Assembly: GCA_944325025.1 (NCBI GenBank) | Contig: CALUYN010000017.1 | Coordinates: 1 to 35,562, forward strand | Length of the DNA: 35,562 nucleotides | Origin: Candidatus Gastranaerophilales bacterium | GTDB lineage: Bacteria > Cyanobacteriota > Vampirovibrionia > Gastranaerophilales > Gastranaerophilaceae | Reading direction: 5' to 3' | Part shown: positions 32,609 through 35,257 of the stretch, in pieces | Position numbering within the stretch: the stretch's first letter is position 1 | How the letters are laid out: each line of letters opens with the position of its first letter | The notes under the pieces: model-generated | Database searches by the model: none | The model's input: only the letters and a program-made list of their open reading frames with translations | Told to the model about the DNA's origin: nothing | Program-made: the position numbers and the translations under genes

Positions 32609-33190
32609 ATGAACAATAACTTATTTCAAACAAATTTTAATAAAAGATTAAACGATTATGATTTAAATATTTTAAATGATAACTCTTTTAAAGACCTTGA
32701 TGACAAAACCTTAAAACTTGAATGTCTTATTGCTGAAAAAGAAGAAGCTCTTGATGCATTAAACACAAAAATAAAGGGAGCAGAGTTACTCGGCAAACTG
32801 CTTGATGTTATGGATTTAAAAATCCGTGCAAAACAAATAGAAAACGAGCTTGTTCAACTTAAAGAAGAATATTCAAAACGTAATATAACAGAAAAACTTA
32901 CAGATGTTATAACACCTAAAAAACAAAAACCGAAATTATCGCCGATACACAGACTTGCACGTTTTGTTTCAAGAAAAATTATCGCGCGCATGTCAAAAAA
33001 ATTTAAATCAATTCTTGACTTAAGCGATTCTTTAGACACTCTTGAAAGCATAAATGAAAATGTAGACGAGCTTATTGCGATGAAAGTGCCCTACGGCGAA
33101 ACAAAAGCAAATTACGAAAAACTGACCAACTATCTTTACCACGCAAACAGAATTCATTCCCAGATTAATAAGAAGATGCAAAAGCTGTAA
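32609..33190 (+). CDS. Coiled-coil hypothetical protein
   Basis: A 193-residue protein that I do not recognise, dominated by helices with heptad character (about 35-90, LKLECLIAEKEEALDALNTK and neighbours; about 135-190). A basic stretch lies at 95-125 (KKQKPKLSPIHRLARFVSRK). No signal peptide or membrane segment. No clear ribosome site is visible before the ATG. It follows a repeat-rich spacer after the permease gene and stands alone. Structural or nucleic-acid-binding roles are both possible. Confidence 0.65.
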   Translation: MNNNLFQTNFNKRLNDYDLNILNDNSFKDLDDKTLKLECLIAEKEEALDALNTKIKGAELLGKLLDVMDLKIRAKQIENELVQLKEEYSKRNITEKLTDVITPKKQKPKLSPIHRLARFVSRKIIARMSKKFKSILDLSDSLDTLESINENVDELIAMKVPYGETKANYEKLTNYLYHANRIHSQINKKMQKL

Positions 33191-33202
33191 ATTTTAATAA
33201 TA

Positions 33203-33231
33203 TTGCGTTATTTTAGAATTTATTATATAAT
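33203..33231 (+). promoter_or_regulatory. Predicted promoter of the hydrophobic peptide gene
   Basis: TTGCGT (33203-33208), a 17-nt spacer and a perfect TATAAT (33226-33231), giving a leader of about 70 nt. Confidence 0.6.
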
Positions 33232-33254
33232 TTATTTTGTAGGATAAGCTCACG

Positions 33255-33303
33255 CTTTCCGCCGACACACACGATTAGTGAAGAAATTGGTCGGAAAGGA
33301 GGG
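33255..33303 (+). promoter_or_regulatory. Structured leader next to the peptide ribosome site
   Basis: CTTTCC (33255-33260) can pair with GGAAAG (33293-33298), extended by GAC/GTC or alternatively CCGAC/GTCGG. The right arm runs into the ribosome site AAGGAGGG (33296-33303), so folding would limit access to it. Confidence 0.5.
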
Positions 33304-33307
33304 CACT

Positions 33308-33373
33308 ATGATTAGACTAATAATAATGCTATTACTGGCATTTGCAATAGCAGTAATAGCATCTAAAGTCTAA
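33308..33373 (+). CDS. 21-residue hydrophobic peptide, candidate type I toxin
   Basis: A 22-codon frame encodes MIRLIIMLLLAFAIAV followed by IASKV. It is a single membrane-spanning helix with one Arg near the start and one Lys near the end. The very strong ribosome site GGAAAGGAGGG is 5 nt before the ATG. Size and pattern resemble the short Ibs peptides of type I toxin-antitoxin systems (which start MMRLVIIL). It has its own promoter, a structured leader and a 3' hairpin. A strong promoter on the other strand faces it. The gene is too small for ordinary ORF calling. Another possibility is a small membrane regulator; no homologue search could be run. Confidence 0.6.
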   Translation: MIRLIIMLLLAFAIAVIASKV

Positions 33374-33374
33374 A

Positions 33375-33435
33375 TGTAGGAGTGAAGATGAGCCTTTAAG
33401 AAAAACACCACTTATTCTTATTGGCTCTTCCTACA
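33375..33435. ncRNA. Hairpin at the 3' end of the peptide transcript / 5' end of the opposing RNA
   Basis: TGTAGGA (33375-33381) pairs with TCCTACA (33429-33435), and GAGCC (33390-33394) with GGCTC (33423-33427), with a bulge between. A further TAAGAA/TTCTTA pairing is possible inside. On the minus strand it would be the first stem of an antisense RNA starting near 33434. Confidence 0.45.
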
Positions 33436-33440
33436 GATAT

Positions 33441-33469
33441 ATTATTTACGATTTTTTACAATTTGTCAA
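33441..33469 (-). promoter_or_regulatory. Predicted antisense promoter opposing the peptide gene
   Basis: On the minus strand: TTGACA (33469-33464), a 17-nt spacer and AATAAT (33446-33441). The -35 is a perfect consensus. Transcription would run leftward from about 33434 across the peptide frame. Confidence 0.6.
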
Positions 33470-33487
33470 GTGTCAAAACACGGTATT

Positions 33488-33710
33488 TATATCGCAGTTT
33501 ATACTAAATATGGGGAAAAAGCGTCACCCAGAACTTATTTCAGGGTCTAAATAATATGAGATTCCGCACTTCGTAAGGACAGGTTCACTCAAAATTTTTG
33601 TCATCCTGAAATAAGTTCTGGATGACAAAAATTTTGGTTCGCTTTGTCAAACAAGTTCGGAATGACAGTATGCCCGTGTTTTGAATATATTTAGTGTAAA
33701 CTGCGATATA
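33488..33710. mobile_element. MITE-like palindromic element, about 223 bp
   Basis: Outer arms of 24 bp (TATATCGCAGTTTATACTAA... at 33488-33511 and its complement at 33687-33710) differ at one position. Inside is a 16-bp perfect inverted repeat (33591-33606 with 33620-33635, AAAATTTTTGTCATCC) and family A/B palindromes (33533-33550, 33599-33626, 33645-33669). There is no coding frame. It looks like a miniature element into which, or from which, the dispersed repeats derive. Confidence 0.65.
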
Positions 33711-33761
33711 AGTCCCCAAAACACCGCTTGCGAAACTGTTATTTTTGTCATAAAATTTTCC

Positions 33762-33793: not shown

Positions 33794-35257
33794 ATGAACG
33801 AGCTTTTGAAAAAATCAGCAGCAGAACAAAGCAAAGCTTTAAAAAATAAAGAAATTTCAGCCGTGGAACTAACAAATGCTGCATTTGACAGGATTGAAGA
33901 AGTTGACGGGGAATTAGGTGCGTTTAATTCTTTGACAAAAGAAACCGCACTTGAAACTGCTAAAAAAGTCGATGAAAAAATCGCAAAAGGGGAAGAATTG
34001 CCGCTTTTGGCAGGTGTTCCGCTTGCACTCAAAGACAATATGAATTTGAAAGGTTCAAAAACAACTGCATCTTCAAAAATTCTGGAAAACTTTGTTTCTC
34101 CGTTTAATGCTACAATAAGCGAAAAGCTCTTGAATAATTTAGTTCCGATTGTCGGAAAAGCCAACCTTGATGAATTTGCAATGGGATCATCAAACGAAAA
34201 CTCGGCTTTCAAAAAAGTTCATAACCCGTGGGATTTAAAAAAAGTTCCGGGTGGTTCATCAGGCGGTTCTGCAGCTTCCGTTGCAGCATGCGAAGCTACT
34301 CTTGCACTCGGTTCTGATACCGGCGGTTCTATCAGACTTCCTGCATCTTTCTGCGGCATTGTCGGGATGAAACCAACTTACGGACGTGTATCCAGATACG
34401 GTCTAATTGCATTTGCATCATCACTAGATCAAATTGGGCCTTTTGCAAGAACTGTTGAGGATGCAGCAAATTTACTTGAAGTTATCTCTGGACATGACCC
34501 AAAAGACAGTACATCTTTAAATCTGCCTGTAGAACATTACGCAGCACATCTAAATGATGATATAAAAGGTATGAAAGTCGGCGTTATAAAAGAACTTATG
34601 ACTGATGCTTTGTCAGAAGATGTTCAAAAAGCCGTTCAAAAAGCAATTGAAGACTATAAAAAATTAGGATGTGAAATTGTTGAGATTTCATTACCTAACT
34701 TGAAACACTCAATCGGAATTTACTATATTCTCGCAACAGCAGAATGCTCATCAAACTTAGCACGTTTTGACGGTGTAAAATACGGTTATCGAACACCTGA
34801 TGCCAAAAATCTTCTTGAAATGTATACAAAAACTCGTGCAGAAGGATTCGGACCTGAAGTTAAACGTCGTATAATGCTTGGAACTTACGCACTATCATCT
34901 GGTTACTATGATGCTTATTACAAAAAAGCTCAACAAATGAGAGCATTAGTAACTCAAGATTTTGTAGAAGCATTCAAAAAAGCTGATATTTTAATCTCTC
35001 CAACTTGTCCAAATACTGCATTTGAACTTGGAGCAAAAGCATCAGATCCTCTTGCAATGTATTTGACAGATATTGCAACAATTTCTGCTAACCTTGCCGG
35101 AATTCCGGGATTGAGCGTTCCTGCCGGATTTGACAAAGACGGTATGCCGATAGGTTTACAGATTTTAGCTCCGCAATTGCAGGAAAGCAGATTGTTCAAC
35201 GCGGCTCACAAGTTTGAAAGAGCTAACGATTATTATCTAAAGTTGGCAAAAATATAG
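33794..35257 (+). CDS. gatA: Asp/Glu-tRNA amidotransferase subunit A
   Basis: A 487-residue amidase that releases ammonia from glutamine for conversion of Glu-tRNA-Gln (and Asp-tRNA-Asn) to the amidated forms, working with GatB and GatC. The amidase-signature triad is in place: Lys80 (PLALKDN), Ser155 (PGGSSGGSAA) and Ser179 (GSDTGGSIRLP). KPTYGRVSRYGLIAFASSLDQ is the family hallmark that separates GatA from other amidases. TTAAGGAGATATT is a strong ribosome site. Neither gatB nor gatC is nearby in the window. Next downstream is a HI0074-like gene. Confidence 0.97.
   Translation: MNELLKKSAAEQSKALKNKEISAVELTNAAFDRIEEVDGELGAFNSLTKETALETAKKVDEKIAKGEELPLLAGVPLALKDNMNLKGSKTTASSKILENFVSPFNATISEKLLNNLVPIVGKANLDEFAMGSSNENSAFKKVHNPWDLKKVPGGSSGGSAASVAACEATLALGSDTGGSIRLPASFCGIVGMKPTYGRVSRYGLIAFASSLDQIGPFARTVEDAANLLEVISGHDPKDSTSLNLPVEHYAAHLNDDIKGMKVGVIKELMTDALSEDVQKAVQKAIEDYKKLGCEIVEISLPNLKHSIGIYYILATAECSSNLARFDGVKYGYRTPDAKNLLEMYTKTRAEGFGPEVKRRIMLGTYALSSGYYDAYYKKAQQMRALVTQDFVEAFKKADILISPTCPNTAFELGAKASDPLAMYLTDIATISANLAGIPGLSVPAGFDKDGMPIGLQILAPQLQESRLFNAAHKFERANDYYLKLAKI

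Follow-up and report, generated by a model that had tools for sequence, protein, structure and literature searches.

The Ibs/Sib modules of Escherichia coli combine a very short hydrophobic peptide with an opposing RNA, are present in multiple copies, and have an antisense RNA that covers the ribosome site of the toxin. Type I modules were previously known only from Proteobacteria, Firmicutes and Tenericutes, according to a 2025 study that offered the first candidate from Cyanobacteria, the MsoT1/MsoA1 module of Microcystis aeruginosa (PMC12390103). In Bacillus subtilis, BsrG/SR4, TxpA/RatA and YonT/SR6 each have a toxin mRNA and an antisense RNA that overlap at their 3′ ends, and the SR4 terminator loop makes contact with a toxin mRNA hairpin (PMC6562991, PMC12390103, PMC5848175). 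In the AapA/IsoA systems of Helicobacter pylori the toxin is a 30-residue membrane peptide, the fold of the full-length mRNA prevents its translation, and several module-specific loci can occur in a single genome (PMC8322730, PMC6733600); for the full-length AapA1 transcript, translation has to await processing at the 3′ end (PMC8322730), and control by IsoA3 has been reported to be module-specific (PMC6733600). A literature search, which left most subscription journals outside its reach, found no type I toxin-antitoxin work on Melainabacteria or Vampirovibrio; for Gastranaerophilales together with toxin-antitoxin, the portion of the literature covered yielded only works on a Fusobacterium phage and on coral microbiomes.

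The locus described here lies near the end of a 35,562-nt contig of a Candidatus Gastranaerophilales bacterium, analysed in its whole length and called the window (contig C17 of a 1.76-Mb, 43-contig genome). What a first-pass annotation had observed at 33203-33469 is real, and richer than first described. The two facing promoters, the Shine-Dalgarno sequence and the 21-residue frame at 33308-33373 that it listed are all present as read from the sequence, and its hairpin at the 3′ end exists and doubles, on the opposite strand, as the 5′ hairpin of the predicted antisense RNA. The features are the following:

33191..33480, no strand assigned: whole cassette, about 285 bp, outer bounds approximate; missing at the same site in several congeners
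33203-33208 and 33226-33231, plus strand: predicted promoter of the peptide mRNA, TTGCGT-N17-TATAAT, read from the sequence
33238..33244, plus strand: 5′ end motif TGTAGGA, able in the fold to pair with TCCTACA at 33429-33435
33255..33299, plus strand: stem-loop abutting the ribosome site and pairing it in the fold of the window; the loop holds the conserved CACACACAATT
33295..33303, plus strand: Shine-Dalgarno AAAGGAGGG, from the sequence
33308..33373, plus strand: membrane-peptide frame of 21 amino acids, MIRLIIMLLLAFAIAVIASKV, putative toxin; ATG at 33308, stop at 33371-33373
33326..33362, minus strand: in-frame hairpin, predicted intrinsic terminator of the antisense RNA (terminator-like by scan), then TTATTATT (33325-33318)
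33375..33435, plus strand: 3′ hairpin of the mRNA and, on the opposite strand, 5′ hairpin of the antisense RNA, from folds of both strands
33318..33435, minus strand: antisense RNA of about 115-118 nt (putative antitoxin), predicted from promoter and terminator positions
33441..33470, minus strand: predicted antitoxin promoter CTTGACAAATTGTAAAAAATCGTAAATAAT, TTGACA-N17-AATAAT at 33469-33441

The opposing promoter agrees with the consensus at 11 of 12 positions and is the sole exact TTGACA-N16-18-WATAAT in the window (0.20 expected; at least one in 19 of 100 shuffles); its −10 box starts 67 nt past the stop codon of the frame. Conservation is weaker at the peptide mRNA's promoter than at the opposing one; the stretch TTTTAATAATATTGCRTT is also found upstream of several other copies. 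A scan for terminators found no clear one for the rightward mRNA at the locus. Leader-peptide attenuation was set aside, there being no longer frame on the mRNA strand before the opposing promoter. To the left the cassette adjoins a gene of 193 residues (32609-33190), whose best Pfam/NCBIfam match, at E 0.046, is below the cut-off, and to the right an amidase-family gene begins at 33794 (Pfam Amidase, E 1e-155), which we take to be gatA. The sequence next to the cassette, 33482-33716, is a palindromic MITE-like repeat with 30-nt arms, 90% complementary, and inner inverted repeats; a stretch resembling it sits in L202 where other congeners hold the cassette. By DNA similarity the genome contains one copy of the cassette. 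Rfam gave no match over the whole window at gathering score and, over the locus at E ≤ 5, four matches of which none is credible (best E 0.24); the phage and plasmid collections gave no cassette match at E ≤ 0.01.

The first-pass annotation had named the locus Ibs/Sib-like. The cassette resembles Ibs/Sib in its very short hydrophobic peptide, its opposing RNA and its multiple copies, but the predicted antisense RNA ends inside the frame, its terminator (33326-33362) lying downstream of the start codon, so that the ribosome site would not be covered. Both family models fail as well: Ibs_toxin (PF13956) gave no match at E ≤ 1 in the own genome (in the control, 9 of 14 genomes matched, E. coli included, above the cut-off in one), and SIB_RNA (RF00113) gave none at the locus and a 16.9-bit match elsewhere in the genome, under the 56-bit cut-off (control, 2 of 14 genomes including E. 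coli). The likeness of MIRLIIML to the Ibs letters MMRLVIIL, as quoted in that annotation, is probably just one of hydrophobic composition. Judged from its sequence, the cassette is not an Ibs/Sib member. What holds of the proposal is the type I toxin-antitoxin-like layout outside Enterobacteria, with a small membrane peptide, a paired ribosome site and a conserved opposing promoter.

That layout comprises, as far as sequence can tell, a gene for a small hydrophobic peptide with its own promoter and ribosome site, and a gene for an antisense RNA with its own promoter and terminator that overlaps the toxin mRNA. The positions and strands of the promoters predict converging genes with a 3′ overlap, as in the TxpA/BsrG group, although the toxin sequence relationship that goes with that group was not found, as judged by Pfam/NCBIfam models alone. 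An overlap of this kind is described for BsrG/SR4, TxpA/RatA and YonT/SR6 (PMC6562991, PMC12390103, PMC5848175); here the predicted antitoxin terminator hairpin lies within the toxin frame. With AapA/IsoA the cassette shares a small membrane peptide, a predicted 5′-3′ pairing of the mRNA and several loci per genome; it differs in that the −10 box of the IsoA3 promoter is inside the toxin frame (PMC8322730, PMC6733600), whereas here the promoter follows the frame and the terminator falls within it. As predicted for MsoA1, the antisense RNA here would form two hairpins and bind the coding region at its 3′ end together with the 3′ UTR. The study of that module lists ten putative toxins of 39-81 residues and two predicted spans for MsoT1 (PMC12390103), against 21-30 residues and one hydrophobic run in the cassettes. 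The cassette family is, moreover, often multi-copy and divided into several classes, and is set apart from MsoT1 by the published description of the latter. By analogy, the closest systems would be the Firmicutes 3′-overlapping ones and AapA/IsoA in mechanism, and MsoT1/MsoA1 in host.

A DNA search of 59 genomes, the home genome included, found similar DNA in 18 at E ≤ 0.001, in three of them (G001, G042 and G046) through matches of 26-35 nt alone. From the 30 loci obtained (L002-L031), L017, L018 and L019 were left out as short matches and L030 as the place of L027 on the other strand; 26 copies were kept, that of the window included, all from the home genus. All 26 copies retain the start codon, the ribosome site and an intact hydrophobic frame of 21-27 residues, and over the same span frame +1 is free of stops in none and frame +2 in one. 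The frame of L031 is read from GTG, a shorter reading of 24 residues being also present. GGAGG is retained in 24 of the 26 copies, the other two having AAGCAGG or AAGGATGG. The opposing promoter is near invariant in these copies, though the query ended at 33450, inside the promoter.

An exact-pattern scan of the named genomes with this promoter gave at least 116 stretches, including at least 48 modules and at least 45 poly-C leaders, the rest being other sites. For a wider set all sources were pooled, and a relaxed promoter and a Shine-Dalgarno-led hydrophobic frame at the right distance were required; this yielded 88 matches, 71 of them unique, in which the frame, on which the set was selected, starts 116-154 nt from the opposing promoter. 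Since the set was fished with the promoter, its conservation there is partly by construction, and the 71 elements are mutually related, so that counts over them are not independent. The peptides have 21-30 residues and one hydrophobic run and fall into several classes with one layout: class A (MxDKIIMLLLAF..., 29 aligned), class B (MDNFNISLLLIF...LNR, 15 of 71), and others with ...TEKALWLIL..., MTKEIIKTVITVIITV... or ...IKALVILELLAKLIL.... The peptide of the window has no Pfam or NCBIfam match at E ≤ 10, and nine peptides compared with the same collections gave no relevant match at that threshold. The promoter pattern matched three viral contigs, among them L150, which carries a class A module. 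L043, L048, L095 and L142 each hold two or three modules, not all of one class, spaced about 300-1100 bp from each other on a single strand. A possible phage origin was considered at L043, where one neighbour has a match to a tail-fibre C-terminal domain and the next to nothing but a PHROG without assigned function; the third neighbour is a tyrosyl-tRNA synthetase, so that the site is chromosomal. At L061, L133, L148 and L149, the last two being viral contigs, the promoter motif precedes other short RNA-like stretches with terminator-like hairpins, in which no peptide frame was noticed.

The rightward RNA, folded from 33233, reaches −69.8 kcal/mol (z −7.1) and the opposite-strand RNA a z of −5.3; in neither case was any of 200 shuffles as good. 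The leader had been said to fold against the ribosome site, and this is true for the window, where the Shine-Dalgarno sequence has a mean unpaired probability of 0.25, compared with 0.60 when the leader is shuffled (none of 30 as low). Over the 71 elements the values are 0.28 and 0.38, the real leader being lower in 48, and in 13 at most one of 30 shuffled leaders was as low. Therefore, hiding of the ribosome site, which the folding model makes clear in the window's copy, is put forward for the family as a tendency and not as a proven trait. TGTAGGG or a variant of it opens the leader, about 70 nt ahead of the start codon (about 90 in class B). This is the motif that starts the antisense RNA, and the leader is thereby complementary to the 3′ end of the mRNA. 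Of 70 leaders, 43 carry the antisense 5′ motif of their own element at p ≤ 0.05 and 27 miss this level; the longest match averages 6.2 nt in the own element, 5.0 nt in the leaders of other elements and 4.2 nt in shuffled leaders. These matches predict a long-range pairing between the 5′ and 3′ ends of the mRNA.

Inside the frame lies a perfect 12-bp inverted repeat, 33326-33337 with 33351-33362, that was absent from the first-pass annotation. The predicted antisense RNA, running from about 33435 to 33318, would stop there, with the base of the hairpin at codon 7 and the tail reaching about codon 4; the tail of the window's terminator, TTATTATT, contains no clean U run. The best antisense hairpin falls within the frame in 66 of the 71 elements, and a T-rich stretch follows on the opposite strand in nearly all; in the five exceptions the higher-scoring hairpin is another one, near the antisense 5′ end. 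Compared with 300 synonymous recodings of each frame, drawn from pooled codon usage, the real antisense strand had the better fold in 58 of 71 elements at p ≤ 0.05 and in 46 at p ≤ 0.01. All 56 elements outside class B exceed synonymous recoding; the 13 that show no such excess all belong to class B, in which the terminator takes in no more of the frame than its last codons and otherwise lies past the stop. Hence, the DNA appears to be under constraint both as a hairpin and as a frame.

Covariation was evaluated in the 29 sequences of class A (alignment A2) over three helices, the stem just upstream of the Shine-Dalgarno sequence, the in-frame hairpin and the 3′ closing stem, against shuffles that ignore relatedness. 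The mixed-class alignment A1 gives only three pairs with RNAalifold because the classes share no hairpin sequence, hence the use of A2. In class A 92.1% of cells are paired, and changes on both sides number 66, the shuffle mean being 23.2 (none of 500 as high); they affect 11 of 24 pairs (shuffle mean 7.8), and slid structures give 4-7 both-side cells. In the first helix, where 89.6% of cells are paired, each of the five pairs shows a both-side change in at least one sequence; in the second, the in-frame hairpin, 7 of 12 pairs are invariant and three have both-side changes; in the third 94.6% of cells are paired and three of seven pairs have both-side changes. The measure of further pair types was no higher than in shuffles in class A (495 of 500 as high). 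With regard to coding, codons 2-18 of class B (14 sequences), where the first 18 codons are mostly outside the terminator, give pS 0.37 and pN 0.135 (pN/pS about 0.36). In class A (27 sequences) pS is 0.27 and pN 0.21, and over codons 2-6 pN (0.25) exceeds pS (0.16), which counts against a simple coding argument there and indicates that, by this measure, coding constraint is weak; the in-frame hairpin may hold down silent change in this class. The strength of the fold (z −7.1), the strong covariation and the weak class A codon statistics speak for a structured non-coding RNA, with the hydrophobic frame as a by-product of AT-rich hairpins. This reading is, nevertheless, highly unlikely in our estimation: start codon, ribosome site and stop are kept in 26 of 26 copies, a stretch of 21-30 hydrophobic residues is encoded at this position even in classes whose hairpin sequences are unrelated (a property on which the set was selected), and the class B pN/pS of about 0.36 comes from codons mostly free of the hairpin.

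The distribution of the cassette was followed with model R1, which is nearly sequence-only because it was built with three pairs. Among its weak matches, at about 40-50 bits, there are probably sites that have the promoter alone, poly-C leaders for example, and reliance was therefore placed on matches of at least 60 bits or E ≤ 1e-8. Among the matches listed for the genus, 25 of 34 genomes, the home genome included, have one of at least 60 bits (counted by hand); the tally at E ≤ 0.001, weak matches included, is 29 of 34. In a non-exhaustive first look at order and phylum, whose listings give no number for the out-of-family genomes searched, the order had matches at E ≤ 1e-8 in 85 of 241 genomes (84 of the home family and one of another; 22 of 50 genera sampled) and the phylum in 58 of 292, all 58 of the home family (15 of 115 genera). 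A genome may hold up to nine copies at E ≤ 1e-8. As the strong matches are nearly all in one family, the cassette looks like a family-level accessory element.

Gain or loss at a single site can be examined, since the 193-residue gene is present in all 34 genomes of the genus, home included, and 30 of these loci were fetched. Downstream of the gene an intact cassette is found in eight (the window included) and a clean cassette-free junction to the gatA-like start in 11 (by eye); three (L206, L212 and L218) have a reverse-strand HTH_3 gene (Pfam), five other sequence or a contig end, and in three the junction could not be placed. The eight filled sites encode six distinct peptides of two classes with no broken frame, and loss of the frame with the flanks kept, which the first-pass annotation had regarded as evidence against its reading, was therefore not seen. 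Comparison of the window with L010 in 60-nt steps gives 88-100% identity in the nearest flanks and 60-68% in the core; part of the 193-residue gene, at 62-73%, is as diverged as the core, and so the whole neighbourhood is a mosaic.

Inverted ends, multiple copies and presence or absence at one site are also traits of a MITE-like transposable sequence, which would end in the inverted TGTAGGG/CCCTACA and have no toxin function. We regard this as scarcely credible, for the conservation runs past the inverted ends through the opposing promoter, the copies belong to different peptide classes and, where they match that of the window, are 69-95% identical to it, unlike those of a recently spread MITE, and inspection of the empty sites by eye revealed no obvious target duplication. 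Toxicity, on the other hand, cannot be read from sequence, and the evidence for peptide and antisense RNA fits equally a non-toxic small membrane protein under antisense control, for example a regulator of a membrane complex. The patchy presence (25 of 34 genomes of the genus), the up to nine copies and the clean empty sites are easier to reconcile with an accessory or selfish module than with a housekeeping regulator, and this alternative appears improbable, though the least so of the three. The best reading is that Gastranaerophilales carry a family of type I toxin-antitoxin-like modules that is apparently new and often multi-copy, and the cassette is quite probably a type I toxin-antitoxin module composed of a membrane toxin, a self-folded mRNA and an antisense antitoxin, gained and lost as a unit.

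Where several modules reside in one genome, the question of cross-control arises. Mean pairwise identity across the mixed alignment is lowest in the antisense loop region, at 0.32, and highest in the promoter, at 0.81, the latter value owing in part to the way the set was assembled. In genome G029 two class A copies, L007 and L022, share 92% of the terminator and 49% of the 5′ hairpin, and among the 21 pairs formed by seven modules there the 5′ hairpins are 36-58% identical in 20; the remaining pair, L031/L110, of another class, has 5′ hairpins 77% identical, which speaks against strict specificity. Since most of the co-resident antisense 5′ hairpins compared have diverged, each RNA probably controls mainly its own mRNA, in keeping with the module-specific control reported for IsoA3 (PMC6733600). 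Small genes of two clusters occur within 500 bp of 14 of 48 modules among the matches listed, of 0 of 45 poly-C control sites and of 6% of random positions, an enrichment biased upward because both profiles were built from module neighbours. Modules with such neighbours are L034, L051, L058, L064, L102, L107, L120, L122, L124, L125, L130, L137 and L142. One cluster is HTH_3 (Pfam, both members tested) and the other has no Pfam match above cut-off (0 of 2); a third component of the module is not claimed.

The frames, promoters and hairpins, their conservation and covariation, and the presence or absence of the cassette at one site are observed in the sequences; from these we infer transcription, toxicity, duplex fate, specificity and cassette movement, and propose the following model. 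A rightward mRNA starting at about 33238 would encode a 21-residue single-span membrane peptide able to arrest or depolarise the cell. The full-length mRNA would be silenced by its own fold, the 5′ end pairing with the 3′ end and the ribosome site being held, in the window's copy, in a stem. A strong leftward promoter would produce a short antisense RNA of two hairpins, the terminator hairpin being written inside the toxin frame, and this RNA would be complementary to the 3′ region of the mRNA and to the frame, of which only the first four to six codons would be left uncovered. The duplex would then be cleaved, in the manner of RNase III, or the mRNA locked shut; should antisense transcription fail, processed mRNA would be translated. 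Gain and loss would concern the module as an entire cassette of about 285 bp.

The cassette shares its antitoxin promoter motif, CTTGACAAA-N7-AAATCGTAAATAAT, with the poly-C leaders that stand before pilin-like genes, and one dedicated regulator could thus link these two unrelated systems. In the own genome, at up to three mismatches, the motif has seven sites (L151-L157; the reversed control none), of which one is the cassette and six are poly-C leaders. Leader frames of this kind (MFNREALRVPPPP..., MNREDAFRIAPPP...) lie downstream of the promoter motif at L032, L039, L078, L094, L112, L136, L146 and others, and in the own genome at L151 and L153-L157. Their tract counts 8-11 C, most often 10 (44 of 51 sites). 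In 40 of the 51 the loose pattern F[TS]LAEV, a pilin-type signal, occurs no more than 700 nt further on, and the leader frame reaches it in four as the sequences stand, the start codons having been picked mechanically and some being doubtful. L094, with 11 C, is open into the pilin-type signal and the near-identical L112 and L146, with 10 C, stop early; from this difference slipped-strand phase variation is suspected, and the poly-C leaders look like a means of phase variation of pilin-like genes.

A wider proposal, which we advance tentatively and hold to be possible rather than probable, is that Gastranaerophilaceae maintain type I modules as a large and diversifying repertoire, with a single stretch in each module being read, under opposing constraints, forward as toxin and backward as antitoxin terminator, that these modules act as largely independent switches, and that one regulator links antitoxin supply to a phase-variable surface programme. 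If the multi-copy family holds, the range of type I systems would be widened to the non-photosynthetic gut relatives of cyanobacteria, and the family would offer naturally varied modules, with empty sites, for antitoxin specificity, toxin/terminator dual coding and the gain and loss of cassettes.
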